Source of the DNA: Thermobrachium celere DSM 8682
GTDB taxonomy: Bacteria > Bacillota > Clostridia > Clostridiales > Caloramatoraceae
Length of the DNA stretch: 32,216 nucleotides
Direction of reading: 5' to 3'
Assembly (NCBI RefSeq): GCF_000430995.1
Contig: NZ_HF952022.1
Coordinates: forward strand, 44,438-76,653
A program made the position numbers and the translations under genes. The notes beneath the pieces were generated by a model that did not search any database, was not told the origin of the DNA, and worked only from the letters and a program-made list of their open reading frames with translations. Shown here in pieces: positions 13,467 to 26,429 of this stretch (position 1 is the first letter of the stretch; each line of letters starts with the position of its first letter).

Positions 13467-13495
13467 TTGATATATAGTTTTAATTTTGCTAAAAT
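13467..13495 (+). promoter_or_regulatory. Promoter of the fluoride-responsive operon
   Basis: TTGATA (13467-13472), 17 bases and TAAAAT (13490-13495) place the transcription start near 13501, exactly at the 5' end of the riboswitch aptamer. Confidence 0.7.
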
Positions 13496-13500
13496 AAACT

Positions 13501-13551
13501 AAGGTGATGGAGTTCACCTTTAACCGCCTTTTGGCTAATGACTCCTACAGA
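13501..13551 (+). ncRNA. Fluoride riboswitch (crcB motif)
   Basis: The conserved crcB-motif blocks are present in order: GGTGATGGAGTTCACC (P1, 13503-13507 with 13514-13518), AACCGCC, a TTTT loop, GGCTAATG and ACTCCTAC. The P1 loop GGAGT (13509-13513) can pair with ACTCC (13541-13545) to make the fluoride-dependent pseudoknot. ACTCC is also the start of the terminator stem, so ligand binding and termination exclude each other: fluoride should turn the operon on. The two genes controlled are both of kinds known from this riboswitch class. Confidence 0.93.
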
Positions 13552-13581
13552 TAACTTTATGTTTTCTGTAGGAGTTTTTTT
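13541..13581 (+). terminator. Riboswitch-controlled terminator
   Basis: Arms 13541-13551 and 13565-13575 pair perfectly over 11 bases with a 13-base loop, followed by a T-run to 13581. The 5' arm is shared with the aptamer pseudoknot, which makes this the expression platform. Confidence 0.92.
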
Positions 13582-13616: not shown

Positions 13617-14825
13617 ATGACGGCAAGTATAGCATTACTTTTAATTTTAGGTTTATTTTCAAACTACATATTTACCAAAATAAAGCTTCCAGGACTTCTT
13701 GGGATGTTAATTTTAGGTGTTGTTGCAGGACCTTATGTATTTAATATACTTGATCCTGAACTTTTAAAAATATCTGCTGACTTAAGAAAGATAGCTTTAG
13801 TTATTATTCTTCTTAGAGCTGGGCTTGGTATTAGTAGAAATGATCTAAATAAGGTAGGTGCAACAGCACTTAAATTTAGTTGTATTCCAGGTATATTTGA
13901 AGGATTTACAATTGCATTTATATCAACAAAGATATTAGGATTTTCATTTATAGAGGGTGGAATACTAGGTTTTATAATTGCAGCAGTATCTCCAGCAGTT
14001 GTTGTACCTCAGATGTTAGAGTTTATGGAAAAGAAAATAGGTACAAATAAAGGTATACCAACAATAATATTAGCAGGGGCTTCAATAGATGACGTTTTTG
14101 CAATAACGTTATTTTCAACATTTTTAGGACTTTATAGTGGAAGCCATGTAAATATAGGAATAGAATTATTTAAAATACCTGTATCAATAATTTTAGGTAT
14201 ACTATTAGGTTTAATTATTGGATTTATTATGGTTTGGATGTTTAAAAAGTACCATATTAGAGATACAAAGAAGGTAGCTTTAATTTTAGGCTCAGCTATT
14301 CTGCTTACAGTAATAGAGAATGAGTTGAAAAATAAAATTGAAATTGCAGGACTTTTAGGAGTAATGACTATAGGTTTTATACTACTTGAAAAAATTCCAA
14401 ATGTAGCCAAAAGATTGGCTTCAAAGTTTAATAAAATGTGGGTATTTGCAGAGATATTTTTATTTGTTCTAGTAGGATCTCAAGTAAACATAAATGTTGC
14501 ACTTAATGCAGGTCTTAAGGGACTGTTGGTAATTTTTATTGGACTTATTGGTAGAAGTTTAGGGGTTTTAGTTTCAACACTTGGAACAGATTTGAATTGG
14601 AAGGAAAGGGTATTTTGTATGATAGCCTATATTCCAAAGGCTACTGTTCAAGCGGCAATAGGAGCAATTCCTTTATCATTAGGTATTCCTTCAGGTGAAG
14701 TTATTTTAGCTGTTGCAGTATTGTCTATTCTTGTAACAGCACCACTTGGAGCGGTGTTTATAAAGCTATCGGCAAACTACTTACTAGAAAGGGAAGAGGA
14801 TAGATTGCAAAGAGAGGTTAGCTAA
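13617..14825 (+). CDS. Cation:proton antiporter (CPA family), fluoride-switch-controlled
   Basis: A membrane protein of 402 residues that is hydrophobic throughout, with about 12 segments, matching the Na/H exchanger fold. Ion-binding candidates are Asp158-Asp159 in ASIDDVF, the place of the conserved Asp pair in electrogenic exchangers, and the AAVSPAVVVPQ segment matches the crossed-helix region. Family members exchange Na+ or another cation for H+. Its place directly behind a fluoride riboswitch suggests a role in fluoride stress, perhaps in restoring pH or ion balance after F-/H+ exchange; direct fluoride transport is not shown. The ATG follows GAGGGAGGG. The CLC-F gene starts 15 bases downstream. 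Confidence 0.87.
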   Translation: MTASIALLLILGLFSNYIFTKIKLPGLLGMLILGVVAGPYVFNILDPELLKISADLRKIALVIILLRAGLGISRNDLNKVGATALKFSCIPGIFEGFTIAFISTKILGFSFIEGGILGFIIAAVSPAVVVPQMLEFMEKKIGTNKGIPTIILAGASIDDVFAITLFSTFLGLYSGSHVNIGIELFKIPVSIILGILLGLIIGFIMVWMFKKYHIRDTKKVALILGSAILLTVIENELKNKIEIAGLLGVMTIGFILLEKIPNVAKRLASKFNKMWVFAEIFLFVLVGSQVNINVALNAGLKGLLVIFIGLIGRSLGVLVSTLGTDLNWKERVFCMIAYIPKATVQAAIGAIPLSLGIPSGEVILAVAVLSILVTAPLGAVFIKLSANYLLEREEDRLQREVS

Positions 14826-23741: not shown

Positions 23742-23760
23742 TCTTACTTTTTCATCTCTT
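23725..23760. terminator. Bidirectional terminator with both stop codons in its stem
   Basis: Arms 23725-23741 and 23744-23760 are perfectly complementary over 17 bases with a nominal loop of two. The response regulator stop (23739-23741) and the DUF5317 stop (23744-23746) form the top of the stem. T-runs flank it on both strands. Confidence 0.8.
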
Positions 23761-24280
23761 TTATTACGTAGCCCATAAGTCCAAGGGATATAAATATATC
23801 TCCTACGCTTATTACGTAACGACCTAATGCTATGTAGTCACCTAAAAAAGGTAAAATTGTTTTTGAGTTTTGTACTGTGTATAAGCCTTCAGATGAAGCC
23901 ATTGTTTCCTTTACATATTCAATTGAAGGTGCCATTCCTGCTTTAACCATAGCTTCTGGGCTTACAGGCATTGCACCACCGTTTAAAAATATGGCAAGTG
24001 CATTTAATATTATGCCTAAACCTATTACAAGGAAGGCATAATCCTTTCTATTGAGATAAATGAAGATTAATATGAGTAGATATTGAGTTAGATAAAATAT
24101 ATAAGTTAAGTTACTTCTTTCTATAACGCCTCTTCTTATGAGATTAAAAAGAATAAATTCAATAGAAAAGGCAGCTACTGCAAGATAAGGTCCTTTTATG
24201 TTAGAAACATCTATTTTTCTTATGTCACCCTTTAGAATAAAACCAATTATAAGTCCGATAATAAGTGATGCTAAAAACAT
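23744..24280 (-). CDS. DUF5317 family membrane protein
   Basis: A 178-residue membrane protein with about five hydrophobic segments. The central NGGAMPVSPEAM motif and the later LGDYIALGRY...SVGDIFISLG segment match DUF5317, a clostridial and actinobacterial family with no assigned function. The ATG lies two bases after the HD-GYP stop, and its AGGGG ribosome site lies inside the end of that gene, so the two are cotranscribed and likely coupled. The pairing suggests a link to the HD-GYP sensor, but no mechanism can be read from the sequence. Confidence 0.8.
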   Translation of the reverse strand: MFLASLIIGLIIGFILKGDIRKIDVSNIKGPYLAVAAFSIEFILFNLIRRGVIERSNLTYIFYLTQYLLILIFIYLNRKDYAFLVIGLGIILNALAIFLNGGAMPVSPEAMVKAGMAPSIEYVKETMASSEGLYTVQNSKTILPFLGDYIALGRYVISVGDIFISLGLMGYVIKEMKK

Positions 24281-24282
24281 AC

Positions 24283-25551
24283 TTAACCCCTCGAATTACA
24301 TAGATTTTCTTTATCACAAATTTTTAAATATATATCAACAATTCTTGGATGAAACTGAAGTCCACGGTTTTTTATAAGTTCAGCTTTTATTTGTTCTGGG
24401 CTTAATGCCTTTCTATATATTCTATCTGTAGACATAGCATCTACTGAATCAGCAAGCTGTAATATATATACATCTATATCTAGCTCGTCCCCTTTTTTGC
24501 CATCAGGGTATCCTTTACCATCATATCTTTCATGGTGGTGTCTAACTAGTTCAGGAATTTTTCCTAGGTCCTTTATTCCTTTAACTATATCGTAGCCTAT
24601 AACTGTGTGACTTTTAATTTGTTTATATTCATCTTCTGTTAACTTTTCTGGCTTATTTAATATACTGTCGGGAATACCTATTTTACCAATGTCATGTAAA
24701 TATGCAGCAAGTTCTAACTCTTCTATATGGCTGTCGCTATAGTTTAGCTCTTCTCCTATTGCTCTAACTATTTTAGCAACGTTTCTTGAATGACCTTCTG
24801 TATACTTATCTCTCATTTCAAGAGCAGTCATTAGGACTTTGACTGTTTCTTGATATTTTGTTTTAGATTCAATATACAACATATATGTATAACGAACTAA
24901 TAATACTGGTACCATTAGCAATAATATTCCTAATATGTTATATTCATTATATAAATATGCAATTAGATAACCAAAAGGAACCATTGGAATAACACTCAAA
25001 AGTCCAAAAGAAAAACTTCTGTTAAATACATTTTTTAAATTATCATTAGTAATTATAGCTATAAGAATAGACATTATTAAAATGTTAGTTGTAACAAAAG
25101 AAATTGTAACTAAAAGCACTTGCAAAATAATTTTTATAATATTATTATTAGAATATCTTTCTATGATTTGATAAATATTTGAAGCAATAAATACAGATAT
25201 TCCTATATTACATACATTAAAAAATATTTTATATATTGGTATGTTGAATATATGTTGGTATTTGTTATTATGTTTAAATATTCTAAGAGCAATACCAAAG
25301 CTAATTATAATCATTGTATAAAAAGTACCAAATATCATAATTGAAGCTAACGTAATTGCAAATCCTGAACTAATTGACATTTTTTTATAAACTACTAAAA
25401 GGGATTCAGTAACTATTGATAGAACACAAAAGAATAGAATACTAATATAATTATGTTTGTTTATATTATTTTTAAATGCTATATAAAATAAATATATATA
25501 CAAAGCATATATGATTGACATATATAAATATAATTTAATTTTTTTTTGCAT
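24283..25551 (-). CDS. Membrane HD-GYP domain phosphodiesterase
   Basis: A 422-residue membrane protein. Residues about 8-228 form seven or eight hydrophobic segments of an unrecognised sensor region. A short linker leads to a C-terminal HD-GYP domain at about 235-415. Key motifs are intact: HSRN at 254-257, LHDIGK with His286-Asp287, HHHER at 338-342, GKGYP at 345-349 and LQLADSVDAM at 365-374. Active HD-GYP proteins hydrolyse c-di-GMP to pGpG or GMP, so this enzyme probably lowers c-di-GMP in response to a membrane or extracellular signal. AGGAGGTAATT precedes the ATG. A structured leader with a micropeptide gene lies immediately upstream, and DUF5317 immediately downstream. Confidence 0.92.
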   Translation of the reverse strand: MQKKIKLYLYMSIIYALYIYLFYIAFKNNINKHNYISILFFCVLSIVTESLLVVYKKMSISSGFAITLASIMIFGTFYTMIIISFGIALRIFKHNNKYQHIFNIPIYKIFFNVCNIGISVFIASNIYQIIERYSNNNIIKIILQVLLVTISFVTTNILIMSILIAIITNDNLKNVFNRSFSFGLLSVIPMVPFGYLIAYLYNEYNILGILLLMVPVLLVRYTYMLYIESKTKYQETVKVLMTALEMRDKYTEGHSRNVAKIVRAIGEELNYSDSHIEELELAAYLHDIGKIGIPDSILNKPEKLTEDEYKQIKSHTVIGYDIVKGIKDLGKIPELVRHHHERYDGKGYPDGKKGDELDIDVYILQLADSVDAMSTDRIYRKALSPEQIKAELIKNRGLQFHPRIVDIYLKICDKENLCNSRG

Positions 25552-25596
25552 AAAATAATTACCTCCTAAATTTAATAATAAAAAGGCCGATTTTTA

Positions 25597-25674
25597 TTAT
25601 ATCCAAGTTATGTGTGAACCACCTGCTAAAACAAGTGTTAAAAGAGCTAGAACTGCAGGTAAAAATCTCTTCAT
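25597..25674 (-). CDS. 25-residue hydrophobic micropeptide
   Basis: A short frame with a convincing start: GAAGGAGTGATAGTA precedes the ATG. The peptide opens Met-Lys-Arg-Phe, has a Leu/Ala/Val-rich hydrophobic core at about 4-17, then Ala-Gly-Gly and a polar/aromatic end, Ser-His-Ile-Thr-Trp-Ile. This is the layout of a signal peptide with a short released tail, or of a tiny membrane peptide. The TAA lies three bases before the inverted repeat's 3' arm. I do not recognise the peptide. It could be a signalling peptide, a leader peptide controlling the HD-GYP gene, or a membrane-active peptide; the ribosome site favours real translation. Confidence 0.55.
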   Translation of the reverse strand: MKRFLPAVLALLTLVLAGGSHITWI

Positions 25675-25684
25675 TACTATCACT

Positions 25685-25742
25685 CCTTCGCGTTTAGGCT
25701 AACAGGTCTTCGCTAATCACCTGTCGCATTTCTCCGCTAAGG
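25685..25742 (-). ncRNA. Candidate structured leader RNA upstream of the micropeptide
   Basis: On the minus strand CCTTAGCG (25742-25735) pairs with CGCGAAGG (25692-25685) in seven pairs with one A-G mismatch, and the 3' strand contains the micropeptide ribosome site. Inside, ACAGGT (25724-25719) and ACCTGT (25707-25702) make a second stem with an 11-base loop. TTAGCG followed by Gly/Ala-type GAG or AAG occurs both in the outer strand and in that loop. I could not match the element to a riboswitch class I know; GEMM, fluoride and preQ1 patterns do not fit. It is GC-richer than its surroundings, as expected for a structured RNA. Confidence 0.5.
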
Positions 25743-25746
25743 ATAA

Positions 25747-25775
25747 AATATAAATTAAATCGGCCTTTTTTACAA
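25747..25775 (-). promoter_or_regulatory. Possible promoter of the leader/micropeptide/HD-GYP unit
   Basis: TTGTAA (25775-25770), 17 bases and TATATT (25752-25747) on the minus strand. Transcription would start near 25740, at the 5' side of the outer stem of the structured leader. The inverted repeat arm lies within the spacer. Confidence 0.5.
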
Positions 25776-25786
25776 GATATTAAGTT

Positions 25787-26404
25787 TTAAGAGGTTATTT
25801 TTTGTATTACCCTGTTAATTGCATCTAGTGTTGCTCTTGCTATTGTTTCATTTAAATCATTTTTAACAAGTGCTGAACCTACAAGTACCTCTTCAGTTCC
25901 ATACAACAGGGCATTTACTATAACAGTAACTACAGATATATCATTACTTGTGTTAATTAGCACATCCTGAACATCAAATATGTACTCTTGTCCTAAAATT
26001 GATTCTACTGCCTTAAGGGTTGTTTTAGAAACTAGCTTCTTTTTGTTTATGGAAGTGTTTATAGCAACGTCTTCAACCTTATACTCATTATCATCGTATA
26101 TTAAACTTACACTACACTCTAAAGTGTTTAATTGGTTTTTAAGTTGAACACTGTTAAATTTAACCCTCTTTGTAGATATAACATCTTCTGATTGTATAGA
26201 AGCAATACTGATTTTATTTCTATCTATTTTTAAATCATACATTGCATATAAAGCAGATTCAATATCTCTTAAAACTTGCTTTGGAGATTTAGAGTTGTTT
26301 GCTAGTACATGTACTTCAGTTATTTCTCCATTTTCCTTTACAACCTTTGAACGTATAACACCCTCTATTTTGTTTATTGTGTCTTGTACTGCCAAAACGT
26401 CCAT
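25787..26404 (-). CDS. Conserved cytosolic protein of unknown function
   Basis: A 205-residue soluble protein that I cannot assign. The N-terminal third (IEGVIRSKVVKENGEITEVHVLA and SPKQVLRDIESALYA, then IDRNKISIASIQ) has a compact alpha/beta look that I associate with uncharacterised Firmicute proteins. The C-terminal part has a GSALVKNDLNETIARATLDAINR stretch reminiscent of regulatory dimer domains, which is only a resemblance. GGAGG is one base from the first ATG but seven from the second at 26404, so the second is chosen. There is no signal peptide or membrane segment. No terminator follows it on its own strand, so transcripts could read into the leader and HD-GYP region. Confidence 0.7.
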   Translation of the reverse strand: MDVLAVQDTINKIEGVIRSKVVKENGEITEVHVLANNSKSPKQVLRDIESALYAMYDLKIDRNKISIASIQSEDVISTKRVKFNSVQLKNQLNTLECSVSLIYDDNEYKVEDVAINTSINKKKLVSKTTLKAVESILGQEYIFDVQDVLINTSNDISVVTVIVNALLYGTEEVLVGSALVKNDLNETIARATLDAINRVIQKITS

Positions 26405-26429
26405 TTTCATACCTCCAACTCACATTAAT

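Follow-up and report, generated by a model that had tools for sequence, protein, structure and literature searches.

Background

Upstream frames gated by an RNA and leaders bound by a protein are kinds of regulatory element already known, and several described systems resemble the locus reported here. In the parts of its description drawn on here (PMC8632094), the alphaproteobacterial odc1 motif is a structured leader, in which the 3' strand of helix P1 constitutes the ribosome site, with a conserved micropeptide frame encoding an 11-aa peptide and with the odc1 gene. The cyanobacterial Downstream-peptide RNA (RF01704), as presented in the excerpts of PMC2864571, is likewise a conserved RNA preceding a short frame, conserved and of unknown family, and the candidate protein-binding leaders in the consulted portion of PMC11109978 are RNAs positioned for binding by a protein of their own operon.

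The locus considered here, from Thermobrachium celere DSM 8682, shares with the odc1 motif the structured leader, the use of a P1 3' strand as ribosome site and the conserved micropeptide frame, but differs from it in lineage, peptide and associated gene; furthermore, a pair of AGCG motifs, an outer helix and a partner protein are features of this locus, none of which is described for the odc1 motif in those parts of PMC8632094. With the Downstream-peptide RNA, as excerpted in PMC2864571, it shares the conserved RNA before a short frame, but not the cyanobacterial setting, and the element has no Rfam match. Relative to the leaders in that portion of PMC11109978, the proposed binding protein is encoded upstream, its target would be a micropeptide lying between two genes, and the binding is a candidate one. 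In the titles and partial texts of the literature covered, the RNA, the peptide and a small partner of HD-GYP are undescribed, an unnamed entry in motif-discovery supplements being possible; titles and abstract openings held nothing pertinent on MASE9 or DUF5317.

Organization of the module

The window, by which we mean the whole stretch of 32,216 nucleotides that was analysed, carries on its minus strand a module with the order UP207 gene, 5' arm of an outer helix (P0), AGCG-bearing RNA, micropeptide gene, 3' arm of P0, MASE9-HD-GYP gene and DUF5317 gene. The first gene (25787..26410) encodes a 207-aa protein, here UP207, which is a candidate RNA-binding regulator. The HD-GYP gene (24283..25551), preceded by a Shine-Dalgarno sequence AGGAGG at 25562..25567, encodes a predicted membrane phosphodiesterase with HDIGK and GYP motifs recognizable by eye and with profile matches to HD_5 (124.3 bits, cutoff 27.2) and MASE9 (36.2 bits, cutoff 24.3). 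The last gene (23744..24280), 2 nt beyond the end of the HD-GYP gene, encodes a DUF5317 membrane protein (Pfam profile 112 bits, cutoff 25), for which a confident model (pLDDT 92) was obtained, a helical membrane protein with no match in the PDB by Foldseek at E<=0.001; the family displays an N-G-G-x-M-P motif that hardly varies, and has neither His nor Cys at any invariant position.

An HD-GYP gene lies downstream of the peptide in all 30 fetched loci of the order and in all 19 loci inspected in the class, where 22 genomes have the peptide, two of them already known, with L112, where the partial match falls within a long ORF, kept outside the count. DUF5317 follows HD-GYP in 20/20 loci retrieved with wide flanks (19 by phmmer, L173 by eye), and UP207 is present in 17 of these, the other three having been picked as UP207-less; the genes beyond the module differ between families. 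Named examples of the module come from Caloramator sp. mosi_1, a Natranaerobius thermophilus plasmid and a record labelled Subdoligranulum variabile. In the plasmid (L183, NZ_CP144220.1), the one annotated named record inspected, the sequence of P0 is different, UP207 is annotated as 'hypothetical protein', and the PLSDB gene table, itself incomplete, holds no gene at the peptide.

Several further observations concern the surroundings of these loci. By eye, the module lies between hibernation-factor-like and SecA-like genes in L173, L174, L176, L179 and L182, some of which are also near flagellar-like genes. In a close relative (G004, L021/L051) the HD-GYP gene is broken by frameshifts and stops, reflecting either decay or sequencing error, and the RNA and peptide are intact. 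The T. celere genome itself has a second copy, 100% identical, of the initial 116 nt of the 146-nt block at 25597-25742 (C45:5814-5929, L002). Next to it are a stretch of N and what is left of a UP207 gene, with 3 stops; the copy is either a duplicate in decay or a product of the assembly. The only Rfam match in the window lies away from the module: a fluoride riboswitch (RF01734, 64.3 bits) at 13494-13554 on the plus strand, which precedes an ORF at 13617-14825.

The micropeptide

An earlier note on this DNA, made from its letters, had proposed a 25-codon frame with a good start between a promoter and the HD-GYP gene. The frame holds up: the micropeptide gene MKRFLPAVLALLTLVLAGGSHITWI (25597..25674, minus strand; 25 codons and a stop) begins with ATG at 25674, is preceded by GGAG at 25686-25683 and ends at 25597. 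Its relatives conform to the consensus MKKxxPxLLAILALAIAGGSxxTWxx, and identities at the three codon positions are 0.52/0.78/0.41 (53 of 59 sequences, the six peptides without the anchor pattern being left out). The median dN/dS is 0.40 over the 893 usable pairs of 1378, which are not independent of one another, with values below 1 in 95.9%. By these measures the micropeptide frame is coding and under amino-acid selection. The most fixed parts are GG[SA] and a near-terminal W, with AGG[SA] found in 50/59 peptides and W among the last seven residues in 53/59; AxA-like residues, by eye, precede GG[SA].

This pattern would fit a single membrane span with the KK inside and the W at the far face, and would equally fit a short signal peptide that is cut at AxA before GG[SA]xx[ST]W. 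The AgrD cyclic-lactone peptides have a KK-LP-hydrophobic N-terminus and a length similar to that of the micropeptide. Unlike AgrD, the micropeptide has no conserved cysteine, and there is no AgrB among the module genes, DUF5317 belonging to a different family. The NprX and Phr pheromones of NCBIfam are comparable in being short with signal-like N-termini, and match one or two members at chance level; they differ in that no cytoplasmic receptor of their kind is seen adjoining the peptide, whose neighbor is instead a membrane HD-GYP protein. No Pfam or NCBIfam family matches the peptide above chance. The peptide may act on the HD-GYP sensor, as a secreted signal of the kind suggested in the earlier note or from within the membrane; the pattern AxA-GG[SA]xx[ST]W agrees with this.

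The outer helix

The most striking conserved part of the element, as judged by comparison of the loci, is P0, a 14-bp outer helix that encloses the whole element, spans from near the UP207 stop to near the HD-GYP ribosome site and was absent from the earlier note. Its 5' arm AAAAAGGCCGATTT (25757..25770) begins 16 nt past the UP207 stop and pairs with the 3' arm AAATCGGCCTTTTT (25580..25593), which starts 3 nt past the peptide stop and ends 28 nt 5' of the HD-GYP start. The folding energy of the 146-nt block without P0 is not unusual (z -0.48, 59/200 shuffles as good); that of the 261-nt stretch that includes the outer arms is, with a z of -4.55 and 0/200 shuffles as good. What settles the reality of the element is its conservation. 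Among 59 loci there are 55 different 5' arms, which form a median of 14 contiguous pairs with their own 3' region; this pairing beats all 100 shuffles in 46/59 loci, with at most 5/100 shuffles as good in 54/59, and foreign 3' regions pair equally well in 1.9% of cases. Five loci do not pass this test (L063, L064, L066, L071 and L150, the last having the arm further upstream), and L156, at a contig end, was left out of it and of the table of leaders. In an alignment of 13 sequences covering P0 and the inner hairpin P2, 92.7% of cells are paired, and there are 28 double-changed cells versus 9.2 in shuffles (0/500), split half and half between the two helices.

The 5' arm starts 0-17 nt past the UP207 stop in 47/55 rows, the others being at 30-56 nt and one at 181. 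The 3' arm is situated 2-16 nt past the peptide stop in 47/59 rows and 15-25 nt 5' of the HD-GYP start in 44/59, a few rows in these spacing counts being misparsed or having broken HD-GYP frames. This placement, together with the retention of P0 in all four loci that lack UP207, favors an ordinary upstream frame, in which translation of a jobless micropeptide just couples or attenuates HD-GYP expression. Against this, the peptide sequence is conserved across families that differ in details of the RNA, and we regard this explanation as unlikely. As an intrinsic terminator P0 was rejected: its 3' arm is associated with a U run in the window, which is missing in several relatives (e.g. G015, G035).

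The promoter that had been proposed for the gap is not supported. There is a single match, TTGTAA-17-TATATT (25775-25747; 9/12), which overlaps the 5' arm of P0 and is not conserved; in G014, for instance, the P0 arm and the core abut. Transcription more likely starts upstream of UP207 than in the gap.

The inner RNA

On the evidence of its conservation the stretch is a real RNA element, so far unnamed, in which the ribosome site for the 25-aa peptide is predicted to be hidden. Its signature is two copies of AGCGRAG: motif A (AGCGGAG, 25732..25738) lies 5' of the hairpin P2 and motif B (AGCGAAG, 25708..25714) in its loop. P2 (25698..25727; 25720-25727 with 25698-25706, bulged A25700) is the inner ACAGGT/ACCTGT hairpin of the earlier note, and a second helix, P1, joins the anti-Shine-Dalgarno strand UCCUU (25739..25743) to 25684-25688, within the micropeptide Shine-Dalgarno sequence AAGGAG (25683..25688). 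This is the region of the stem noted before over the ribosome site, in which CCTTAGCG (25742-25735) can indeed pair with CGCGAAGG (25692-25685) on the minus strand.

Compensatory changes are found in P0 and P2 and are weak in P1. Across 27 sequences aligned with MAFFT, with the structure assigned by hand after inspection, P2 and P1 together have 37 double-changed cells versus 9.6 in shuffles, of which 35/37 are within P2, where 7/8 pairs have changes on both sides; counts of further pair types in this alignment and in the one of 13 sequences exceed shuffles only weakly (124/500 and 56/500 as high), not at the 1% level. As a plain hairpin P2 beats 95/100 shuffles in just 13/59 leaders, its support being the covariation. 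In P1 83% of cells are paired, the changes are mostly one-sided and 2 cells are double-changed; this helix is backed by the ribosome site being predicted as more hidden than in controls. The site is less than 0.5 unpaired, by prediction, in 52/55 UP207-bearing leaders and more hidden than with a shuffled upstream sequence in 46/55 loci, the mean unpaired probability over the 55 being 0.23 versus 0.40 (p 2e-8, which is optimistic since the loci are related). At the level of prediction, the proposal that the RNA hides the ribosome site is upheld. The 5' strand of P1 precedes motif A in the group of the window and lies between the motifs in other lineages, and these two separate ways of hiding the ribosome site argue that hiding it is the function; on the other side, the change in position of this strand and the scarce covariation of P1 weigh against the mechanism proposed below.

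The AGCG copies are direct repeats whose spacing is nearly fixed; in the loci of the order they stand near positions -65 and -40 relative to the start of the peptide. In L145, L147 and L149 there is an additional upstream AGCG copy, and the peptides there lack the W. Neither the window block nor, at the curated score, any of 15 related loci matches a class in Rfam 15, the best sub-threshold hit in 25500-25850 reaching 15.3 bits against a cutoff of 45. Other known kinds of element were considered and set aside: ANTAR-type dual hexaloops (A1/G4 in AGCGGA), since one motif sits in an open stretch and the other in a loop whose size varies; CsrA-type sites, since there is no ANGGA; and a transposable repeat with inverted ends, since there is one locus per genome with fixed neighbors. 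The searches of plasmid and phage DNA gave no match at E<=0.01, and an 11-codon leader frame within the window RNA is, by eye, not conserved.

The UP207 protein

No Rfam, Pfam or NCBIfam family covers the RNA, the peptide or the whole of UP207. The structural model of the protein (pLDDT 90.4, pTM 0.65) has an N-terminal domain of alpha-beta-beta-alpha-beta topology, nearest to the C-terminal dimerisation domains of zinc transporters (Z up to 9.6, rmsd 2.0, 70 residues), in which K44, R48, D49, D63 and S68 are invariant across 42 sequences. These 42 constitute the UP207 profile and were taken from 45 extracted proteins, L072, L102 and L105 being dropped. The C-terminal half is similar in fold to the regulatory domain of citramalate synthase (Z 10.8, rmsd 3.0, 118 residues) and to LeuA (Z 8.7); weak matches of the LeuA_dimer profile in 11/42 members (best E 5.8e-4) agree with this. 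Unlike LeuA and citramalate synthase, UP207 has this domain fused to another small domain, without a synthase domain. The combination in the model of a metabolite-sensing half with a conserved, partly basic helix would fit an RNA-binding switch. Against an RNA-binding role, the N-terminal domain resembles zinc-transporter dimerisation domains and does not assume a classical RNA-binding fold.

UP207 paralogues in deeper lineages precede SpoVS-, SecA-, TatD- and Hfq-like frames, identified by reading the translations by eye, and lack the AGCG pair; six of these (L217, L218, L221, L225, L227 and L234) lie directly 5' of SpoVS-like frames. The occurrence of paralogues before other genes without the pair (18 loci) implies that the family is wider and that RNA binding is not common to all of it.

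Distribution and joint absence

A DNA search at E<=0.001 recovered matches in 11/99 relatives, those in G062 and G085 being short pieces and perhaps due to chance; searches with the HD-GYP protein, the peptide profile and the RNA model then yielded 30 loci in the order. Of 225 genomes of the order, 31 have a peptide match, one each (that of G016 is partial, at a contig end), and an identical set of 28 genomes is recovered with UP207 (E<1e-70) and with the RNA model (E<1e-9), the latter having been built from the loci of 27 of those same 28, with the UP207-less L068, L075 and L078 excluded. Weak matches of the RNA model (E 4e-4 to 9e-3) in G006, G069, G088 and G183, and an additional one in G171, were not counted. 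The 31 genomes with the peptide comprise these 28 plus G069, G140 and G183, all three of which lack UP207. In the class, where the peptide profile recovers 22/391 genomes and UP207 is found in 55 (46 at E<1e-40, the nine weak matches covering the C-terminal half only in ORFs of about 510-540 aa that resemble LeuA), G521 displays the same double absence of UP207 and of AGCG in the leader. Likewise, the leaders of G069, G140 and G183 have no AGCG, and at least two copies are present in 55/55 UP207-bearing rows.

The hairpin is above chance in two of the four UP207-less leaders, G140 and G183 (3 and 4 of 200 shuffles as good), the lowest-energy fold of G183 (L078) pairing a hairpin arm otherwise, and is not above chance in G069 (L068, 68/200) and G521 (L104, 161/200). 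Hence, in L068, L104 and L078 decay of the whole element is not separable from loss of a protein site. In a tree of 55 HD-GYP proteins, from which L051, L061 and L071 were omitted as they have no long HD-GYP frame, the four absences of UP207 and motif trace to four changes, of which three or more fall on supported branches. Motif and UP207 go together in 3/3 supported independent pairs (sign test p 0.25, three pairs being too few to reach significance).

A spaced AGCG pair follows UP207 in 79/92 loci with a recognised HD-GYP versus 2/20 without, and is seen in 1/2280 shuffled sequences. This count covers the 112 UP207 loci with enough sequence, repeated UP207 copies being dropped; 40 additional loci among the UP207 set were hand-picked in favor of multi-copy and odd rows and are not a random sample, and the spaced pattern was used because a loose count of AGCG anywhere is unspecific in GC-rich genomes. 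The two pair-bearing loci without a recognised HD-GYP are L071, in which the HD-GYP frame is split, and L241, which has an unclassified 471-aa frame. The strict pair is missing in 13/92 loci with UP207 and HD-GYP. In L187 and L189-L191 motif A is clear and the hairpin altered. L235-L237 have UP207 and HD-GYP, with GAGCTGAGCC in the place of AGCG, P0 and an anti-ribosome-site helix recognizable by eye and peptides without GG[SA]xx[ST]W, and are possibly a co-evolved variant.

At the level of the phylum, UP207-profile matches occur in 145/338 genomes, paralogues and weak matches being counted in, and throughout the phylum as sampled membrane HD-GYP genes are repeatedly preceded by homologues of the hairpin, stem and frame. 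The RNA and peptide, whose joint recurrence had been raised as a question, recur together beside such genes. The comparative data strongly support the module as a conserved unit, and the recurrence together of RNA, peptide, UP207 and a predicted c-di-GMP-degrading enzyme suggests a signalling module that has gone unrecognised.

Proposed mechanism and alternatives

The earlier note had envisaged a ligand- or peptide-responsive RNA. The predicted hiding of the ribosome site is retained from that proposal; the likeliest trans-acting factor is now UP207 rather than a small ligand or the peptide, since UP207 and the RNA signature are present together and lost together. With hiding as the function, UP207 binding to the AGCG pair is therefore favored as the switch, with P0 providing the connection to HD-GYP translation. 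We propose that a UP207 dimer would bind both AGCG copies and switch P1, and that UP207, possibly via a ligand in its LeuA-like domain, would set translation of the micropeptide. A ribosome at the peptide stop would open P0 just 5' of the HD-GYP ribosome site, so that opening of P0 may couple synthesis of the peptide to that of the phosphodiesterase. The peptide, in turn, might set c-di-GMP breakdown by way of the MASE9 sensor, either as its partner in the membrane or as an exported ligand. For the whole of this reading, with the UP207-AGCG switch, the coupling by P0 and the peptide as MASE9 partner or ligand, we consider the chances to be even. The four UP207-less leaders (0.58, 0.26, 0.16 and 0.09 unpaired) do not differ clearly in hiding, nor in any one direction, and UP207 may act as an activator or as a repressor.

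A small-ligand riboswitch, in which a metabolite or nucleotide bound by the RNA switches the ribosome site and UP207 is a mere neighbor, would be in keeping with the conserved loop letters, the predicted helix covering the Shine-Dalgarno sequence and the location before c-di-GMP genes. However, its signature is a short motif present twice, once in an open stretch and once in a loop that varies in size, and thrice in L145, L147 and L149, which looks like repeated protein sites. Moreover, the signature is gone where UP207 is gone, though two of the four such leaders keep the hairpin, and Rfam offers no match; a riboswitch is accordingly an improbable account. The two direct repeats with near-fixed spacing could also be a DNA operator of UP207 instead of an RNA site, but copy B is part of the loop of P2, a hairpin that shows compensatory changes, and there is no conserved promoter adjacent, making this very improbable. 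Finally, a type I toxin-like mRNA, whose small hydrophobic peptide is silenced by long-range closure, is suggested by the predicted hidden ribosome site and the 5'-3' closing helix and is scarcely credible given the single match per genome, the fixed synteny with HD-GYP and DUF5317 and the conserved C-terminal GG[SA]xx[ST]W.

Implications

Extending the UP207-AGCG reading across the phylum, one might envisage a peptide-to-c-di-GMP system, in which a metabolite-sensing, LeuA-like RNA binder of a new family releases a micropeptide that sets the phosphodiesterase together with DUF5317, the peptide being either held in the membrane or released from the cell and trimmed to GG[SA]xx[ST]W, and P0 tying the outputs of UP207, peptide and enzyme to one mRNA. 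Taken as a whole we offer this tentatively, as falling well short of an even chance; in full, it would constitute a new signalling system.

To our knowledge, little is known of what signals feed into the membrane HD-GYP phosphodiesterases of Bacillota. A conserved, dedicated micropeptide with its own RNA beside the enzyme provides a concrete candidate for such an input. The module would also account for a recurrent unannotated gap, and UP207, an uncharacterised protein family, becomes testable as an RNA-binding one.
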